From the NCBI GenBank assembly GCA_000634215.1, contig JFLX01000001.1, positions 186,001 to 250,000 of the forward strand: a stretch of DNA of 64,000 bases, given 5' to 3'. The notes beneath the pieces are model-generated. The model saw nothing but the letters and a program-made list of their open reading frames with translations. It was not told where the DNA came from and searched no databases. Shown here one piece after another: positions 46,331 to 62,756 of the stretch. Every line of letters begins with the position of its first letter. Positions within the stretch are counted from its first letter, which is position 1. The stretch comes from Prochlorococcus sp. scB243_495L20 (lineage in GTDB: Bacteria; Cyanobacteriota; Cyanobacteriia; PCC-6307; Cyanobiaceae). The position numbers and the translations under genes were made by a program.

Positions 46331-48106
46331 CTAATAGTGATTAGCAACTTTTCTGTGATGAACTGCTGTCTTACATGATAAGTCAGAAACATTACCATTT
46401 TCAACAATTCCGTAAATTATCCAATGGTCTGGAGTCTCCAATCTTGAACTGACTTTACAATCTAAAAAAGCGAGTGAATCTGAGAGAACAGGTCCCCCTT
46501 CAGCGATGTTGCTAATTACATCTACATCAGCAAATCTATCAGCTCCAGGGGCAAATCTTTTTAAAAAATGTCTGAACATTTTTTGATAGTTATCTTCTCT
46601 CAAGATATTCACAACAAAACCTTTACCAACTTGCATATATGATTCAATAGCTCTATCTTTTGCTACTGCAACTGTAATACCTGGTGGAGAAAAGCTTGCT
46701 TGACTAACCCAACTTGCGACCATTGCACTTTGTCTAAATGTCGAACCTTCCCCTTGACTAGCTGTTACTACATATAATCCTCCACTTAATCTACCTAACG
46801 CTTTATCTAAATTTGAATCAAGGCTCTTCATAGAGGCAATATTCTTCTTTTTATTGATCAATTGACCCAAATCAGTTCCAGCTTCTTCGAATTGTTGATA
46901 AACAATCGGATCTGGAATATTTTTAACTCTTAAGGGAGAGAAAGCTTCTTTTTGACCAAGTTCTCTTAATTTATTTGCTAGGGAATCTATAGGTTCATCA
47001 TTTCCACCAAATGCATCATAAACTGCAGTAAATTGTTTTGGCTTTAGTGCTGCAAATAAAGTACCAAGAGATTCTTTTAATTCATTATCTGAGTCTACAG
47101 GCCATGTGGGAATGACTACTGCTTTTGATTCGGAAATTAAACTTGTTAATTCTTGCGGGTCAGAGGATCTTAGATCAATTAATTGAACCTGAGCATCTGC
47201 TTTGCTTATTCCATGAGATATCGCTTGACTGAGTCGATCACAATAGCCATAGTCGCTGATATAGCAGACTGAAACAAAATCATTGCCTTTGCTTTTATTG
47301 CTACTCCATTCTAGATATTTTCCTTTCCAAAAATTGACCTGATTATGGAGCAAAGGCCCATGACCAACAGCTATTGTTTTTAGTTCAGGTAGCTTATCTA
47401 TTCTTTTAATTGCCTGCATAACGCTTCTAGCGTTTGGACCCATAAGGCAATCGTAATAAAAACGGAAATCATCGTATATTTCTTTTTGATCAGTGTCAAA
47501 AAATTCTTCAGAACAATAATGGAGTCCAAAAGCATCGCATGTATAGAGAACATTTGTGCTGTGATCATATGAAAATATGGTATCTGGCCAATGCAAATTT
47601 GGTGCACTTATAAATTCAATATTATGTTCTAAACCACTATTAGGATTAGTTCCGAGATTTAAAAACTCTCCACTCTTAACCTCTAGACGTTTAAAAGGAA
47701 TATGTATTTGGTCTTCAATAAATTTCAGTGCTAATTTTGATCCAACTACCGTGATATTTTGGTTTAATTCTAAAAGATTACCTATTAAACCAGAATGATC
47801 AGGTTCTGTATGGCTAGTAATTAGATAATCAACTTCTTGCGGATTTACCTTTTTTAGTAATTCTCCAAACCATAATTCCTCGAACTTTGCGTGACTAGTA
47901 TCAATGATTGCTAGTTTCTCGCCTTTAATAATAAAACTATTGTAAGTAGTTCCATTTCTTAAACCAAATTCAATATCAAATCTACTTCGATCCCAATCCA
48001 AAGATCTTATGGCACAAGAATCGTCAGCAAAGTTTTGAGATTGAACCGTCAATTTGTTATTAGTTTGTGCCAATTTAGAATTACTTGTCCGGGCAGAGGC
48101 TATCAT
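46331..48106 (-). CDS. flavodiiron protein with intact diiron motif (second of a tandem pair)
   Basis: A 591-residue flavodiiron protein. The metal site TSHTEPDHSGLIGNLL near 97-112 keeps the HxExDH ligands, and NLHWPDTIFSYDH, DAFGLHYCS and VGHGPLLHNQ add further ligands. A flavodoxin-like domain (about 260-395) and a flavin reductase domain with GRLSGGLYVVTASQGEGSTF complete it. It is upstream of the 44512 gene (16 bp gap) and pairs with it. The combination of one intact and one degenerate copy matches the Flv3/Flv1 logic. Promoter lies in the 119-bp gap shared with alaS. Confidence 0.92.
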   Translation of the reverse strand: MIASARTSNSKLAQTNNKLTVQSQNFADDSCAIRSLDWDRSRFDIEFGLRNGTTYNSFIIKGEKLAIIDTSHAKFEELWFGELLKKVNPQEVDYLITSHTEPDHSGLIGNLLELNQNITVVGSKLALKFIEDQIHIPFKRLEVKSGEFLNLGTNPNSGLEHNIEFISAPNLHWPDTIFSYDHSTNVLYTCDAFGLHYCSEEFFDTDQKEIYDDFRFYYDCLMGPNARSVMQAIKRIDKLPELKTIAVGHGPLLHNQVNFWKGKYLEWSSNKSKGNDFVSVCYISDYGYCDRLSQAISHGISKADAQVQLIDLRSSDPQELTSLISESKAVVIPTWPVDSDNELKESLGTLFAALKPKQFTAVYDAFGGNDEPIDSLANKLRELGQKEAFSPLRVKNIPDPIVYQQFEEAGTDLGQLINKKKNIASMKSLDSNLDKALGRLSGGLYVVTASQGEGSTFRQSAMVASWVSQASFSPPGITVAVAKDRAIESYMQVGKGFVVNILREDNYQKMFRHFLKRFAPGADRFADVDVISNIAEGGPVLSDSLAFLDCKVSSRLETPDHWIIYGIVENGNVSDLSCKTAVHHRKVANHY

Positions 48107-56760: not shown

Positions 56761-57999
56761 TTGAGCCAGTTAGATTCCAATTGGTCGTTTGTTGATGACA
56801 GTAAGATAACACCCAAGGGGTTTCTTTTTGCTGGGATATCTGCTGGTTTAAAAGCTTCTAATAAAAAAGATTTAGCACTAATACTCGCTCCAGAAGGAAG
56901 TATTTTTAGTGGGATGTTTACCCAATCAATAGTTCGAGCTTCTTGTGTGGATATTTGTGAGGAAAGGATTAAAACAACTTCAGGTTTTCTAAGAGCAATA
57001 TTAATTAATTCTGGTCAAGCAAATGCATGTACAGGAAATCTTGGCATCCAACATTTTCAAATTGCGACAGGAAAGATTGCGGAACTTTTAGGAATAAAAG
57101 AAGAAGAAGTTTTAATGTGCTCAACTGGTGTAATTGGTGTTCCAATACAAATAAATGATTTAGTAAAAAATTTACCGAGTTTAGTTAGTGATTTAAAGGG
57201 TAATAATTTTGAAAATGCAGCAGAAGCAATTTTAACAACTGATTTGACTTTGAAAAAAGTGTCAATAGAGACGATTATTCAAAGTAGAAAAATAACAATA
57301 GCAGGATTTGCAAAAGGTTCAGGAATGATTTACCCCAATATGGCTACAATGCTTGCTTTTCTAACCTGTGATGCGGGTATTCAAAAAGAAGAATGGGACA
57401 AAATGATTGCTATTGCGGTTCAAAAATCTTTTAATGCAATATCAGTTGATGGAGAGACAAGCACAAATGATTCTTTTGTTGGAATAAATGCAGGAGAGAA
57501 AATTGAAAAAAGGTTTTTTCCAATTATTCAACAAGGGATTGATATTGTATGTCAGAACTTGGCAAAAAATATTGCAAGGGATGGAGAGGGAGCAAATTGT
57601 TTATTAGAAGTTTTGGTTCAAGGAGCAAAAAATACAGATGATGCAATTATGCTCGCGAAATCTATTTGTAATTCTGCCTTGGTAAAAACTGCGATACATG
57701 GTTGTGATCCAAATTGGGGACGAATCATTTCTGCTGCAGGTAATTCTGGAGTTAAATTCAACTTAAATGACGTTGACTTGTATATAGGAAACACCCATAT
57801 TTTGGAAAAAGGCAAGTTAAATAAATATGATCCACAAAAAGTCACAGACTATATTAGGTCCAGAATGAAAGGTAGATATTTGGTAGATGATATTGTAAAA
57901 ATTATGATTAATCTAAATTCTGGCGAATCAAAAGGTACAGCTTGGGGGTGCGATCTTTCTAAAAAGTATGTTGAAATAAATAGCGAATATACTACATAG
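56761..57999 (+). CDS. argJ: bifunctional ornithine acetyltransferase / N-acetylglutamate synthase
   Basis: A 412-residue ArgJ starting with TTG (MSQLDSNWSFVDDSKITPKGFLFAGISAGLK). It contains the autoproteolysis site, with the nucleophile threonine in MIYPNMATMLAFLTCD, plus INSGQANACTGN, CSTGVIGVPIQ, KSFNAISVDGETSTNDS and GCDPNWGRIISAAGNSGV. It recycles the acetyl group in arginine synthesis. The last 17 bp recur at 60158-60174, so this end is an attachment site: residues SEYTT and a stop are retained in both copies. Confidence 0.95.
   Translation: MSQLDSNWSFVDDSKITPKGFLFAGISAGLKASNKKDLALILAPEGSIFSGMFTQSIVRASCVDICEERIKTTSGFLRAILINSGQANACTGNLGIQHFQIATGKIAELLGIKEEEVLMCSTGVIGVPIQINDLVKNLPSLVSDLKGNNFENAAEAILTTDLTLKKVSIETIIQSRKITIAGFAKGSGMIYPNMATMLAFLTCDAGIQKEEWDKMIAIAVQKSFNAISVDGETSTNDSFVGINAGEKIEKRFFPIIQQGIDIVCQNLAKNIARDGEGANCLLEVLVQGAKNTDDAIMLAKSICNSALVKTAIHGCDPNWGRIISAAGNSGVKFNLNDVDLYIGNTHILEKGKLNKYDPQKVTDYIRSRMKGRYLVDDIVKIMINLNSGESKGTAWGCDLSKKYVEINSEYTT
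57979..57995 (+). repeat. attL-like direct repeat, argJ 3' end
   Basis: AATAGCGAATATACTAC, identical to 60158-60174. Extending 4 bp upstream gives one mismatch over 21 bp. In argJ it encodes most of the final SEYTT and is followed by ATAG, i.e. the stop TAG. Core of the left junction of the islet. Confidence 0.85.
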
Positions 58000-58046
58000 T
58001 CTGAGATCGATTGTGCTGCAGTAGAAGTCAAGGAATAGTAAAACGA

Positions 58047-58065
58047 TTTGACACGAATATGACAC
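58047..58065 (+). repeat. TTTGACAC / TATGACAC pair, 11-bp period (left arm)
   Basis: TTTGACACGAATATGACAC, 52 bp inside the left core. It aligns with the guaA-remnant pair at 40315-40333 at 14 of 19 positions. A shared TATGATTGACTT block follows at 58091-58102 on this strand; the guaA remnant has it on the opposite strand. Confidence 0.65.
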
Positions 58066-58191
58066 TAACTGAATCCTTGAAATCAATTGGTATGATTGAC
58101 TTTTATACTATATGATTTTATCAACTCGGAATATAATACGACTTAACGCTAAAACATATTTGTATCAATAGATTTGAAGATTATTAATATA

Positions 58192-58210
58192 TTGCTTACG
58201 GTCTGCTTAC
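58192..58210 (+). repeat. TTGCTTAC / CTGCTTAC pair, 11-bp period (left inner arm)
   Basis: TTGCTTAC at 58192-58199 and CTGCTTAC at 58203-58210. The same octamer pair with the same period recurs at 60010-60028 near the right end. Confidence 0.65.
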
Positions 58211-58256
58211 ATTTAATTAGGACTTATTATTACTAATTTAATTAAGTAGTACTAGA

Positions 58257-58424
58257 TTAAACATATCCATTAACTATGGTTGGATATTCTTTGTTTTTGA
58301 ACATTTTTCTATAATCATCATGCAATCTTTCAGTTGCCACTTTTCTTTTCTTCATTGCATCTCTGATTAAATTCATCTCATTGAATGTTCGATTGAGAAT
58401 GGTGAATGGAGTAGTTAGTTTCAT
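58257..58424 (-). CDS. islet small protein A (55 residues)
   Basis: An ORF from an ATG at 58424 with a strong Shine-Dalgarno (AAGGAGG, 4 bp before the start), which is unusual in this genome. The product begins MKLTTPFTILNRTFNEMNL and is basic and helical (RDAMKKRKVATERLHDDYRK), with no cysteines and no membrane segment. The 19-bp block AGGAGGTTTTATGAAACTA also precedes and starts the neighbouring gene at 58646 with one mismatch. No family recognised; no function suggested. Confidence 0.7.
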   Translation of the reverse strand: MKLTTPFTILNRTFNEMNLIRDAMKKRKVATERLHDDYRKMFKNKEYPTIVNGYV

Positions 58425-58463
58425 AAAACCTCCTTTTTTTAATAAAAACTAAGAATCAATAAC

Positions 58464-58646
58464 TCAGTCGCAGTAAATTAAACAATTTTGATTTGTTGGA
58501 TGTTCTCTACATTCTTTCTCCCAAAAGTTTTGAAACTCAGGCGTGCATTTTGCAAGTTCTTTTGGGGTTTCGTTTAGATTTAATCCTGCATAATTAAACG
58601 CAGTTAAGTATCTTGGAAGAATGTTAAATTGATTGAATAGTTTCAT
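58464..58646 (-). CDS. islet small protein B (60 residues), cysteine-containing
   Basis: An ORF with an AGGAGG Shine-Dalgarno 4 bp before the ATG. The product starts MKLFNQFNILPRYLTAFNYA and ends in a cysteine-rich polar tail with four cysteines (KCTPEF, KECREH, QNCLIYCD) that could bind metal or form disulfides. It has no signal peptide or membrane segment. It is 39 bp upstream of islet protein A on the same strand, with a near-identical translation-start block, so the two probably share regulation. Family not recognised. Confidence 0.7.
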   Translation of the reverse strand: MKLFNQFNILPRYLTAFNYAGLNLNETPKELAKCTPEFQNFWEKECREHPTNQNCLIYCD

Positions 58647-58702
58647 AAGACCTCCTAGATCTATATCTATATTGTCCTCCTATTAACTTTAAATTCATAG
58701 AG

Positions 58703-58867
58703 TATTATTACCCGAGTAAAAGTGCTTTGTAGTTGTCACGACTATCTTTTCCCATTAACTAGGAGTAGAAATAATTCAGGAGTCAAAAGCACTTCATCGA
58801 CTTTGTGGACAGCGAGGTGCATAAGACTCCAAGAGGGCGAATCAATGCCCTCTTATTTTATTTTTAG
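58703..58867 (+). ncRNA. candidate structured small RNA in the islet
   Basis: A 165-bp stretch between the divergent small genes and the UPF0045 gene with strong RNA structure and no convincing ORF. TATTAT at 58703-58708 is a possible -10. A 9-bp perfect stem pairs AAGTGCTTT (58720-58728) with AAAGCACTT (58786-58794). GGAGTC (58779-58784) can pair with GACTCC (58825-58830), which crosses the first stem, so a pseudoknot or a switch between two folds is possible. A strong terminator closes it. Alternatively it is a long 5' leader of the UPF0045 gene that terminates early. Confidence 0.55.
58831..58867 (+). terminator. strong rho-independent terminator
   Basis: An 8-bp stem AAGAGGGC / GCCCTCTT with an 8-nt loop (GAATCAAT), followed by ATTTTATTTTTAG. 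It is the best intrinsic terminator in the window and has a GC-rich stem in a very AT-rich region. Confidence 0.85.
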
Positions 58868-58955
58868 TAAACTTTTACTGATTCTCTTCGCTAAATTCTA
58901 TCGACATTAGCATTTAGGATATGAATGCTTAGATTTATCAAAATAGGAAAAAATT

Positions 58956-59249
58956 ATGTTTGTAAGTATTGACTTATGTTTAGTCCCTATTGGAGTTGGG
59001 ACTTCCCTATCTCCCTATATAAAAGAGTGTATTGAAGTTATCAAAAATGAAGGACTTAACTATGAATTGGGAGCGAATGGAACGGCAATAGAGGGAGATT
59101 GGGATAAAGTATTTGAATGTGTCAAAAAGTGTCATAAAAAAATTCATTCAAAAGGTGCACCTAGAATTTATACAACAATGAAAGTAAATACTAGAACTGA
59201 TAAAGAACAAAAATTCTCAGATAAAGTAAAAAGTGTATTAGATAAATAA
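58956..59249 (+). CDS. UPF0045 / MTH1187-type thiamine-binding family protein
   Basis: A 97-residue ferredoxin-like-fold protein: VSIDLCLVPIGVGTSLSPYIKECIEVI, then GLNYELGANGTAIEGDWDKVFECVKKCHKKIH and GAPRIYTTMKVNTRTDK. The pattern P-x-G-x-G-x-S-x-S and the L-x-x-x-G-T-x-I-E-G segment are those of the UPF0045/DUF77 family, some of which bind thiamine or its pyrimidine. AGGA lies just before the start. It is cargo of the argJ islet, and its stop overlaps the start of the next small ORF. Confidence 0.85.
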   Translation: MFVSIDLCLVPIGVGTSLSPYIKECIEVIKNEGLNYELGANGTAIEGDWDKVFECVKKCHKKIHSKGAPRIYTTMKVNTRTDKEQKFSDKVKSVLDK

Positions 59250-59377
59250 TGGAAAAAGAACGAAATTACGATAATGATGGATTAGACCCATCCGAAGAAT
59301 ATTTTAAAAATAAGGAAAAAGGGAATGATTATGATACCTATTTTCCTCAAGAAGAATCAGAACCACCACATTATTAA
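59249..59377 (+). CDS. 42-residue acidic hypothetical protein in the islet
   Basis: The ATG overlaps the UPF0045 stop (TAATG arrangement), which indicates translational coupling. The product is MEKERNYDNDGLDPSEEYFK followed by a polar, acidic tail rich in Tyr, Glu and Pro ending PPHY. It is probably disordered. No family is recognised. The coupling and the sensible composition are the only reasons to call it. Confidence 0.5.
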   Translation: MEKERNYDNDGLDPSEEYFKNKEKGNDYDTYFPQEESEPPHY

Positions 59378-60157
59378 ACACTTGGAAATTCTTTGATATT
59401 CAATTTACATTAGAGGATATAACTACTCTCTTTTTTTATGTCCATTAATACATTTCTTTTGCTGTTATTGGTGATTGCGAATTACACAAACTTATTTTTA
59501 AATATAAAAAAAAGAAAAACATGATTGGAAGGGTTATGTTTTGAGATATCATCAAGAATTTTCATACAAACTAAACTATCACTTTAATATGAATCAATGA
59601 TAAGAAAAATTATCCTTGATATTTAATGTTGCGACTTCTTCCGTTACCGATTTTTATTTGTATTTATCTTTGCTCTTGGTGGAGATGTAAAAAAATATTA
59701 TCGCCAGTGATAAGCAACTAAACTCTTGCATTGATTGGGCATATATAAAAAATTTACCTCTACCACCAAAACCTTCTTTTATCGAATTTTATATTGTTTA
59801 TGTCTCTTCTTTTTTTTAATTTCCCTTTGGGTTAATTATTCAACAACTACCTTTTGCGAAGAAAGTAAGATACTACGAAAGAGAAATGAAATTAATATTT
59901 GATAAATGGAATTTAGAAAAAATTAAAAAAATAACCAACTAATTTATTAAAGTTATCACTCAGATATTGATTCAATTTAATTTTGACTTGTTTCAGACAG
60001 CATGTTCTGTTGCTTACATTTTGCTTACGGTTGCAAATTAGAAATTTAGTAATAACTTAATTTTTAATTACCACTTACACTTTGCTGACAATTGTATTGA
60101 CTCATAAAAAGTCAGTTGTTGCAGTCAATTATGAGTGATTATCTTTGTATAGCAATG
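59378..60157. other. non-coding or decayed part of the islet
   Basis: No convincing gene. Two tiny hydrophobic ORFs occur (59438-59524, 28 residues, MSINTFLLLLLVIANYTNLF; 59626-59721, 31 residues, MLRLLPLPIFICIYLCSWWR), both without a ribosome binding site. A stretch at about 59823-59942 reads PFGLIIQQLPFAKKVRYYER then MKLIFDKWNLEKIKKITN to a stop but is cut from anything upstream by stops, so it may be the end of a broken gene. The last 160 bp hold paired arm-like repeats and an inverted repeat ACTCATAA (60100-60107) / TTATGAGT (60129-60136). Confidence 0.5.
60010..60028 (+). repeat. TTGCTTAC pair, 11-bp period (right arm)
   Basis: TTGCTTAC at 60010-60017 and 60021-60028, the same octamers as at 58192-58210 and in the same orientation. 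A degenerate third pair (CACTTAC / TGCTGAC, 11-bp period) follows at 60072-60089, closer to the right core. Confidence 0.65.
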
Positions 60158-60174
60158 AATAGCGAATATACTAC
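60158..60174 (+). repeat. attR-like direct repeat of the argJ 3' end
   Basis: AATAGCGAATATACTAC, identical to 57979-57995, followed by TTAAG. In the argJ frame it reads SEYTT and TAA, so it is the likely original end of argJ. On the minus strand it supplies the TAG stop of the small membrane protein gene, meaning the core straddles the 3' ends of two convergent genes. Confidence 0.85.
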
Positions 60175-60413
60175 TTAAGTTTTAGTAAATCTAATGGTAG
60201 ATATTCATTAATACAGAGAAACAGTATTGTTAAAGTTCCAAATACAGAGCCTATAAAACCTCCAAAAAAATTAACTAATAATCCAGATTGTCTAATTATT
60301 CCTTCTTCTTTTTTTTCTTCTTCAAAATTAGGAGAATCAACTACTTTTAAGCGCTTACTGGTTGTTGGTTGTTTAAGTTGTTGGTGTCGGATGAGGGCTT
60401 CGAAATCAGGCAT
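60171..60413 (-). CDS. small membrane protein downstream of and overlapping the ParA-like gene
   Basis: An 80-residue protein from the ATG at 60413 (MPDFEALIRHQQLKQPTTSKRL); a TTG at 60437 would add eight residues. The first half is charged (EEEKKEEG), then one transmembrane segment at about 46-67 (LVNFFGGFIGSVFGTLTILFL). It overlaps the ParA-like gene by 67 bp in another frame, suggesting coupling. Its stop lies in the argJ attR repeat. It could anchor or regulate the ATPase; that is inference from context. No family recognised. Confidence 0.62.
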   Translation of the reverse strand: MPDFEALIRHQQLKQPTTSKRLKVVDSPNFEEEKKEEGIIRQSGLLVNFFGGFIGSVFGTLTILFLCINEYLPLDLLKLK

Positions 60414-61018
60414 GGAATTTGTGAGGCAATTGAACAATAAGCAGACCAGCCCGTCATTCGACGAGGATCTGATCTACCTAAATCGTCTACAGCTTCAAAT
60501 ACAGCATTGCCAGAGGCTTCTGCTTTATCAAATGCTGAGAGTAAGGGTATAAATGTATCAAAAACATATAAACCAAAATTTTCTAGAGCTGCTTTGGCTT
60601 GTTGCGCTGCTTTTTGCTGTCTAAAATCAACTTTTACTATTACTACAGCATGGTTAACTTTTAAGTTGCTTAATAAATTAGCTAGTTCAACAGTTAATTC
60701 CACTGATCGTGCTTTTGCGGTTGTAGGTAGGATAACTAAATCTGAACCATAGGCTAAGTGTTTAAGCTCTTCTTGATCACTGCTAGCCTGGCCATCAGTT
60801 ATTACAATTTCTGATGATCTTGATGCTTTAGCAGCTGAACTGACAGGGAAAACTGGAAATGGAAGATTGCCTCTTGATGCGTATGCTAAAGCAGATCTAT
60901 TCTTGTCGGCATCGACTATGCAAACTTTTTTCCCTTCAGAATGCCAAACACTTGCAAGGTGAATACTTGTACAGGTCTTGGCCACCCCCCCTTTTTGTCC
61001 GCAAACGGTAATGAACAA
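60347..61018 (-). CDS. ParA/MinD-type Walker ATPase
   Basis: A 223-residue ATPase starting MFITVCGQKGGVAKTCTSIH with the deviant Walker A KGGVAKT, a Walker B-like VDADKN, ITDGQASSD in place of the usual D-x-P-x-x, and LVILPTTAKARSVELT. These proteins position plasmids, chromosomes or protein complexes such as carboxysomes by ATP-driven surface gradients. No parB or parS-like site is adjacent; instead a small membrane protein overlaps its 3' end. It is close to the ParA family of cyanobacteria without a proven cargo. Confidence 0.88.
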   Translation of the reverse strand: MFITVCGQKGGVAKTCTSIHLASVWHSEGKKVCIVDADKNRSALAYASRGNLPFPVFPVSSAAKASRSSEIVITDGQASSDQEELKHLAYGSDLVILPTTAKARSVELTVELANLLSNLKVNHAVVIVKVDFRQQKAAQQAKAALENFGLYVFDTFIPLLSAFDKAEASGNAVFEAVDDLGRSDPRRMTGWSAYCSIASQIPCLISKPSSDTNNLNNQQPVSA

Positions 61019-62277: not shown

Positions 62278-62437
62278 TGTGAAGGATTTGGGTTTCTAAT
62301 AAGATAAATTAATTAATAATCAATCTTCTCAGTATTTATACTCATAAAATGAAAAATTTTCTTTTTAATACAACCAACTGCAGCAATATTTACATATTAA
62401 TTGATTATCTACTACAACTTTTTATTTATTTAAAGAA

Positions 62438-62703
62438 GTGGAGTCCTTCCAGACTCCGCGCATCATTTGGTTGATAAGGCTGATATGACCCCATCTCCTT
62501 AAGGATCAAGCAGCAACTGGTGCTGTTTGACGGGAGAAACTAACGATTTTGTTAGCATTTGTGTTTTTGCTCTAACCGAGCAGGCTTCAGTCACCTTCCT
62601 TATGCCCCGTCGAAACCATTACAACCCCTAATCATGGAGTTGAGCGGAATCGAACCGCTGTCCGAAACATCGGTTGAGATCACCTAGTCCAATTGGACAT
62701 TTA
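62438..62703 (-). ncRNA. ssrA: transfer-messenger RNA, permuted two-piece gene
   Basis: On the minus strand the acceptor part comes first: a T-arm and acceptor end GGTTCGATTCCGCTCAAC then TCCA, with the CCA at 62637-62635 encoded. After a 6-nt spacer the coding part starts at 62628 with GGGGTTGTAATGG (acceptor-stem partner of CAACTCC) and TTTCGACGGGG. The tag reading frame runs 62556-62506 and gives ANKIVSFSRQTAPVAA and TGA. A hairpin GGAGTC/GACTCC (62440-62457) marks the 3' end. This is the processed two-piece tmRNA of alpha-cyanobacteria, which rescues stalled ribosomes. Outer ends are approximate. Confidence 0.93.
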
Positions 62704-62756
62704 TATTCTGACAGGCAAAATGAGTATTGAATAGTTTTTTTAAGTTTTTATCTTAT

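Follow-up and report, generated by a model that had tools for sequence, protein, structure and literature searches.

In Prochlorococcus, small and mostly integrase-less elements commonly insert at the 3' end of argJ, probably through integrases acting in trans

We analysed a 64,000-nucleotide stretch of the genome of Prochlorococcus sp. scB243_495L20 (contig JFLX01000001.1, positions 186,001 to 250,000; hereafter the window), in which a short islet lies between argJ and a conserved flank encoding a ParA/CbiA-type ATPase, and compared it with the corresponding interval in other genomes of the genus. Insertions at the 3' end of argJ are common in Prochlorococcus, about half of the loci examined having one, and the inserts are mostly short and without an integrase of their own, so that the enzyme probably comes from elsewhere. 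Taken as a whole, the evidence makes it probable that these are minimal elements inserted by tyrosine integrases acting in trans. Site-specific integration at the ends of genes has long been known; what is new here is a shared core with several classes of arm repeats, small and mostly integrase-less units arranged in arrays, and a site at which roughly every second locus is occupied. We found no account of an argJ insertion site in the open-licence literature, as represented by titles and abstract openings; the original tycheposon paper, which lies outside that scope, could mention the site.

Empty and occupied argJ loci

An argJ profile matches 226 of the 266 genomes of the genus, 40 being without a match. 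Occupancy was scored at 129 argJ loci, namely the window and 128 of the 149 other genomes among the matches listed; left out were six genomes with argJ at a contig end, 15 further listed genomes and about 76 matching genomes beyond those listed, and nine loci picked for arm matches or an integrase were kept out of the count (G088 and G089 are among the loci viewed separately). Sixty of the 129 loci are empty, with one core and argJ directly convergent with a small gene, and 69 are occupied, 67 by closed inserts of 142 to 9339 bp and two by inserts cut by contig ends. Thirty-nine closed inserts carry two cores of the strict pattern, seven carry three and three carry four; in the other 18 the strict pattern is found only at the left core, the right core being mutated, shifted or hardly recognisable. 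Frequent degradation of the right core but not of the left is expected if coding by argJ holds the left copy alone, and the reading S-E-Y-T-T-stop is preserved at the listed left junctions of occupied loci. Five cores at the G089 locus delimit four units in tandem, and the window islet has three, counting an altered internal one.

A sequence-only reading of the window had proposed site-specific integration at the 3' end of argJ from a 17-bp repeat, and had expected an empty site to hold a single copy with the two genes convergent. The 60 empty loci are sites of this kind, and the opposite outcome, a genus without empty sites, was not found. The same reading had taken argJ for an unusual target, a view that 69 occupied loci overturn. 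Its description of the repeat holds: AATAGCGAATATACTAC occurs exactly at the two outer core sites (Table 1), these are the sole matches in the window with up to three mismatches (0.25 expected), and each of the two, in the frame of argJ, gives S-E-Y-T-T-stop, the codons AGC GAA TAT ACT being followed by ACA TAG on the left and by ACT TAA on the right. Extended into the flanks, the repeat is 24 bp long at 92% identity. The stop codon of a convergent open reading frame (ORF) of 88 amino acids (aa) falls within the right core, so two genes share the attachment site at their 3' ends. A coincidental repeat or a local duplication, for which nothing speaks except the short length, is refuted by the single-core empty sites, and we give it practically no credence.

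On a right-flank tree of 124 loci (of the 127 flanked on both sides, three had too short a flank), occupancy changes at least 36 times, against a mean of 41.5 and a minimum of 34 for shuffled labels. The presence of an insert thus hardly tracks descent, although exchange of flanks would look alike. Such scatter might be expected if homologous recombination through argJ and the parA flank were the main means by which the interval spread, and the flanks, 88 to 99.6% identical between genomes (94 to 99.6% for the ATPase flank among matching genomes), are in our judgement similar enough for exchange. Homologous exchange cannot, however, make the junctions, since inserts begin and end at the core and arrays are punctuated by cores, and the order and combination of elements vary between loci. 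As the principal route of spread we consider it improbable, but it can act alongside site-specific insertion, and exchange of whole intervals probably adds to the spread. Some elements are more alike than their surroundings: those of G042 and G048 are 98.3% identical over 1800 bp amid flanks of 94.6%, and those of G171 and G247 are 96.9% identical amid flanks of 94.9%.

The composite islet of the window

Judged by its ends, the window islet is a composite of two elements, one behind the other. The single islet of the sequence-only reading is ruled out by a third core, ACTCGGAATATAATACGACTTAA, which departs slightly from the usual core and contains an insertion of 3 bases, and by two different element ends inside the islet. 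The repeat at 57979, which had been taken for the left end of the whole, keeps that role for a short remnant (element A); the 2-kb element behind it (element B) starts at the internal core. Positions 57985-58067 are 94% identical over 83 bp to the left end of the G032 insert, and positions 58041-58139 are 84% identical over 99 bp to the right end of the G126 insert; element A has probably arisen by collapse between arm repeats, nothing lying between its two ends. Element B has arm pairs at both ends, and inserts at argJ in 11 genomes (G009, G045, G010, G232, G248, G133, G103, G245, G048, G042 and G226) match it with 91 to 95% identity over 724 to 1609 bp. No integrase was found among five islet ORFs by Pfam scan, in keeping with the earlier statement that the islet lacks a recombinase, and the Thiamine_BP cargo protein is the sole match over its cut-off among them.

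Arm repeats

Direct repeats 8 to 14 bp apart were sought in 58 elements with two separable ends, a set that excludes the 18 loci with an unrecognised right core and the short remnants. The best pair, with a run of at least 6, is spaced by 11 bp at 41 left ends, at 48 right ends and at both ends of 34 elements; shuffled ends give 11-bp pairs in 2.2 (left) and 3.3 (right). Measured from the core start, most left pairs begin at 63-71 or 89-91 nt (two at 111 nt); on the right, the pairs mostly precede the core by 73-97 and 135-148 nt. By analogy with the familiar attP sites of lambda-type elements, this is their arm layout. The two ends of an element also tend to resemble each other, the longest motif common to both in the same orientation averaging 10.9 nt, compared with 7.6 for shuffled ends, 8.0 for the opposite orientation and at most 9.2 for re-paired ends (200 permutations).

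Classified by eye, the arm motifs fall into AACAC-like, GTGATTAT, TGCTTAC (the class of element B), GTGCGATCT, TGTGATTT and TGTTCAC classes; automatic labels were used for clear motifs alone, as they put most AACAC-type ends under 'other' and misplaced two TGTGATTT-type ends (G139 and G109). Three arm patterns were searched in 87 near-complete genomes. The TGCTTAC pattern occurs at 12 places in 11 genomes, the GTGATTAT pattern at 15 places in 12 genomes, and a pattern for an AACAC subtype at 12 places in nine genomes. All 39 places are downstream of argJ, 37 of them between argJ and the conserved right flank; for the other two, in G006 and G246, the right flank lies outside the retrieved sequence.

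Integrases

Two of the 128 insert ORFs of at least 120 aa match PHROG integrases, one each in G082 and G037, which amounts to a recognised integrase in two of the 69 occupied loci that the survey covered (in G022, G105 and G139, part of the insert was scanned); a third, in G088, lies outside the survey. The search for integrase-carrying relatives at argJ that the sequence-only reading had called for was thus successful. Our initial integrase profile detected the G037 enzyme alone, that of G082 being detected through PHROGs. The G037 element measures 9.04 kb, and its right end encodes a 527-aa integrase; in G082 a 468-aa integrase adjoins argJ, and the G088 integrase is 57 to 58% identical to it. 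Pfam matches of the G082 integrase leave its first 100 residues uncovered, and against solved structures the integrase profile gave weak matches to integrase and XerA, XerC-like and XerD chains (best E 6.6e-06). The G082 element (L106 1879-5963) also encodes a serine recombinase (PF00239), a ParB/methylase-like protein and two ORFs, of 281 and 81 aa, that match no Pfam family.

The strongest hint of mobilisation in trans is an arm class common to inserts with and without an integrase. Arms of the TGTGATTT class are found on the integrase-bearing elements of G082 and G088, at the left ends of inserts in G241, G045, G087, G109 and G208 that have no recognised integrase, and at the visible left end in G139. 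Such sharing could also be left behind if the integrase-less inserts were dead deletion derivatives, each inserted once by its own integrase that was subsequently lost. This is the main rival to insertion in trans, and the apparent collapse of element A and the mutated right cores at many loci also accord with it. It fits poorly, however, with the scarcity of integrases noted above, with near-alike integrase-less elements amid more diverged flanks (G042 and G048), with the retention of arm pairs at both ends of 34 of the 58 elements and with the purifying selection on the cargo gene of the window. We therefore think it unlikely, and of the two origins that the sequence-only reading had left side by side, mobilisation in trans and deletion, our results lean to the first, action in trans being what we infer.

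A different source of enzyme would be the host. Xer proteins are known to insert Xer-exploiting elements, and by analogy a housekeeping tyrosine recombinase might insert all argJ elements. The candidate is a 389-aa protein encoded at L001 1426-2595, beside a cobalamin adenosyltransferase-like gene (named by eye). It is the sole PF00589 match of the window genome, and a PF00589 match in a frame of 386 to 398 aa is present in 85 of 87 genomes by a count of the rows listed; these may all be the same gene. A single host enzyme is nevertheless hard to reconcile with several unrelated arm motifs and with argJ integrases that sit beside the arm motif of their own element, an arrangement that fits element-specific integrases, or with one integrase profile shared by argJ and a second coding-gene end. 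We hold this explanation to be very improbable, more so than either the deletion of integrases or spread by homologous exchange.

The second site emerged from profile A2, built from eight integrases, which matches 28 of the 266 genomes (the window genome is without a match). Of the matches placed, three are at argJ and the other seven adjoin a flavodiiron-protein gene at its 3' end, and no tRNA gene was found at 16 A2-integrase loci scanned, with flanks of about 1.5 kb and three flavodiiron loci included. In the window this gene encodes 591 aa (46331-48106), and the site, at 46331, is empty. Loci with the flavodiiron site are L192, L323, L325, L328, L338-L340, L343 and L346-L348; some of the inserts contain GTTGAAA-type repeats, and those of G025, G082 and G233 carry a Thiamine_BP homologue 94 to 96% identical to that of the window.

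Cargo

One family accounts for 36 of the 128 insert ORFs, in 26 loci, and PF03895, a YadA-type membrane anchor, is matched by 33 of the 128; from these matches, the commonest cargo is predicted to be a variable YadA-anchored surface protein. In 23 longer members of the family the C-terminal 130 residues have a mean identity of 63%, and residues 41-200 a mean of 30%. Among the other cargo are enzymes of restriction and modification, a helicase/restriction protein, and phosphatidylethanolamine-binding and DnaB-like proteins. The Thiamine_BP protein has matches in 34 of the 266 genomes, the window genome included. Compared with 24 homologues, at argJ and elsewhere, the window gene shows 440 synonymous and 108 non-synonymous codon differences in total, and five copies downstream of argJ (G248, G232, G015, G246 and G010) differ from it by 6 to 12 codons and by no amino acid; the preponderance of synonymous differences indicates that the gene is under purifying selection.

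Features of the window

Table 1. Core sites, putative elements, arm repeats and genes at the argJ locus of the window
Feature	Position	Strand	Evidence or remark
argJ, target gene	56761..57999	+	PF01960, E 6.3e-129; last codons form the left core site
Left core site, putative attL of element A, codes SEYTT of argJ	57979..57995	+	Left junction of occupied loci at the identical place
Element A, apparent cargo-less remnant, left end fused to right end	57996..58123	+	Matches to G032 and G126 inserts
Element A arm repeat, 11-bp-spaced, TGACAC type	58047..58065	+	Overlap point of the matched G032 and G126 ends
Internal core, putative left end of element B	58124..58146	+	Lines up with left ends of G103, G245, G048 and G042 inserts
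Element B, TGCTTAC arm class	58147..60157	+	Insert comparison with 11 genomes
Element B left arm pair TTGCTTACGG-TCTGCTTACATT	58192..58213	+	Arm-repeat analysis
55-aa ORF, no family	58257..58424	-	In stretch common to the TGCTTAC arm class
60-aa ORF, no family over its cut-off	58464..58646	-	ORF and Pfam scan
Cargo gene, 97-aa Thiamine_BP protein	58956..59249	+	PF01910, E 5.6e-35
42-aa ORF, no family, overlaps stop of cargo gene	59249..59377	+	ORF and Pfam scan
55-aa ORF, no family, possibly no gene	59735..59902	+	ORF and Pfam scan
Element B distal right arm pair TTGCTTACATTTTGCTTACGG	60010..60030	+	Arm-repeat analysis
Element B proximal right arm-like pair CTTACACTTTGCTGAC	60074..60089	+	Arm-repeat analysis
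Right core site, putative attR	60158..60174	+	Upstream half element-derived (GCAATG..), downstream half host-derived (TACTTAAGTTTTAG)
Convergent 88-aa ORF	60171..60437	-	Stop codon inside right core
ParA/CbiA-type ATPase, conserved right flank	60347..61018	-	PF01656, E 4.7e-13

Upstream of the Thiamine_BP gene, at 58830-58870, a terminator-like G+C-rich inverted repeat is followed by a T-rich stretch (seen by eye). A non-coding RNA in the islet was considered and rejected, the sole sub-threshold match there being to a microRNA family (E 0.29, 25.7 of 105 bits) that we judge to be due to chance. The sole RNA gene that ARAGORN finds in the window lies outside the islet, about 2.2 kb past it; this is a transfer-messenger RNA gene of the permuted cyanobacterial type (62415-62724), a possible further insertion target.

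Discussion

We propose that an attachment site for small integrative elements lies where the 3' ends of argJ and of the small convergent gene overlap. Each element combines a core, which is a copy of the end of argJ, with lambda-like arm repeats placed at set distances from that core. A tyrosine integrase would recombine a circular form of the element with the chromosome inside the roughly 8-bp GAATATAC, in such a way that argJ and its convergent neighbour would both stay intact, and repeated insertion at the same core would produce tandem arrays. Most elements have a cargo of one to a few genes and lack an integrase, which the rarer integrase-bearing elements with matching arms would supply in trans. 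In the window, such a history would have left a collapsed remnant followed by a 2-kb element with a thiamine-binding-protein gene, and at least some of the elements may well be mobile in the present day.

Several observations weigh against this mechanism. The arm repeats are not universal, 17 of the 58 left ends and 10 of the 58 right ends lacking an 11-bp pair, and many pairs of elements are no more alike than their flanks, so that only part of the elements look recently moved. The elements of G032, G025 and G059 have ends of two different classes, and the G208 insert joins a TGTGATTT-type left end to a right end of another type; the first three may be fused composites or neighbours that would be unable to move as units. 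No integrase was found that matches the TGCTTAC arms of the window element, the one PF00589 match of the window genome being the 389-aa recombinase on another contig, and an AlphaFold model of the integrase (two sequences) reached a predicted local distance difference test score (pLDDT) of 37 and was not used. Finally, viral contigs and phage records gave no convincing match, the searches having used exact patterns or one query, which distant relatives may escape.

The individual phage candidates were these. The exact core pattern has three matches in viral contigs, all inside ORFs of other phage-like contigs, and the TGCTTAC arm pattern has two, both in a 425-aa ORF that two related contigs lacking the core have in common; we rejected both as signs of a phage origin. 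The GTGATTAT arm pattern has no match in viral contigs, and for the G082 integrase no relative was confirmed in viral contigs with a peptide pattern or found in phage records with tblastn. Compared with phage records, the islet DNA matched only 52 bp of cyanophage P-TIM68, in two records, and this piece, within the 60-aa ORF, shares 85% identity with a hypothetical gene of the phage.

How flexible genes, above all those for surface and defence functions, enter and leave Prochlorococcus genomes is an open question. The argJ locus offers a defined site, a readable code of core and arms, and candidate integrases, and mobilisation of minimal elements in trans becomes directly testable there. A bolder proposal, to which we give slightly less than even chances, is that the argJ end is an integron-like platform assembled from lambda-type components, with one shared and unchanging core, small integrase-less cassettes and several integrases acting in trans with diverged arm specificities, and that genes for surface proteins and against phages would turn over rapidly there; if true, this would place such a locus in one of the most abundant photosynthetic organisms.

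The features of the argJ elements have analogues in several known systems. Lambda-type elements at the 3' ends of protein-coding genes, for example the icd, guaA, prfC and trmE sites, likewise have a core formed by the end of the gene, direct core repeats, arms at set distances and a restored gene. The islet has the core repeats, the single-core empty site, the restored target gene and arm repeats on both sides of the core, but no integrase of its own; lambda-type elements normally carry one, whereas argJ elements seldom do and display several arm classes on one core. Closer in host are the tycheposons of Prochlorococcus, reportedly described by Hackl et al. in 2023. According to the excerpted text of PMC10872708 these are elements of 4 to 200 kb, found at tRNA genes and equipped with a tyrosine recombinase, and in the excerpts of PMC10872708 and PMC11389934 they share with the argJ elements the genus, the carriage of cargo and the remodelling of genomes through site-specific tyrosine recombination. 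The argJ elements differ from tycheposons, as characterised there, in their protein-coding gene end, their size (0.1 to 9.3 kb for whole inserts), the general absence of a recognised recombinase and their tandem arrays; the islet itself lies at argJ rather than at a tRNA gene and has no recombinase.

Integrons and clusters of attC sites lacking integron integrases (CALINs) offer another parallel, since in these too, on the excerpted account of PMC11389934, small gene units stand in tandem at one site with no integrase in the unit, and CALINs are held to be moved in trans. Set against that account, the argJ arrays have no integron integrase beside them (that of the window has no integrase in the islet, and the genome's single PF00589 match is on another contig) and their units bear paired arm repeats. 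The relation between the two kinds of argJ insert, finally, resembles that of elements like miniature inverted-repeat transposable elements and of satellite elements, in which, as far as the excerpt of PMC11389934 goes, enzyme-less units share their ends with a rare enzyme-bearing relative; unlike these, the argJ units are site-specific at the end of one gene and carry cargo.

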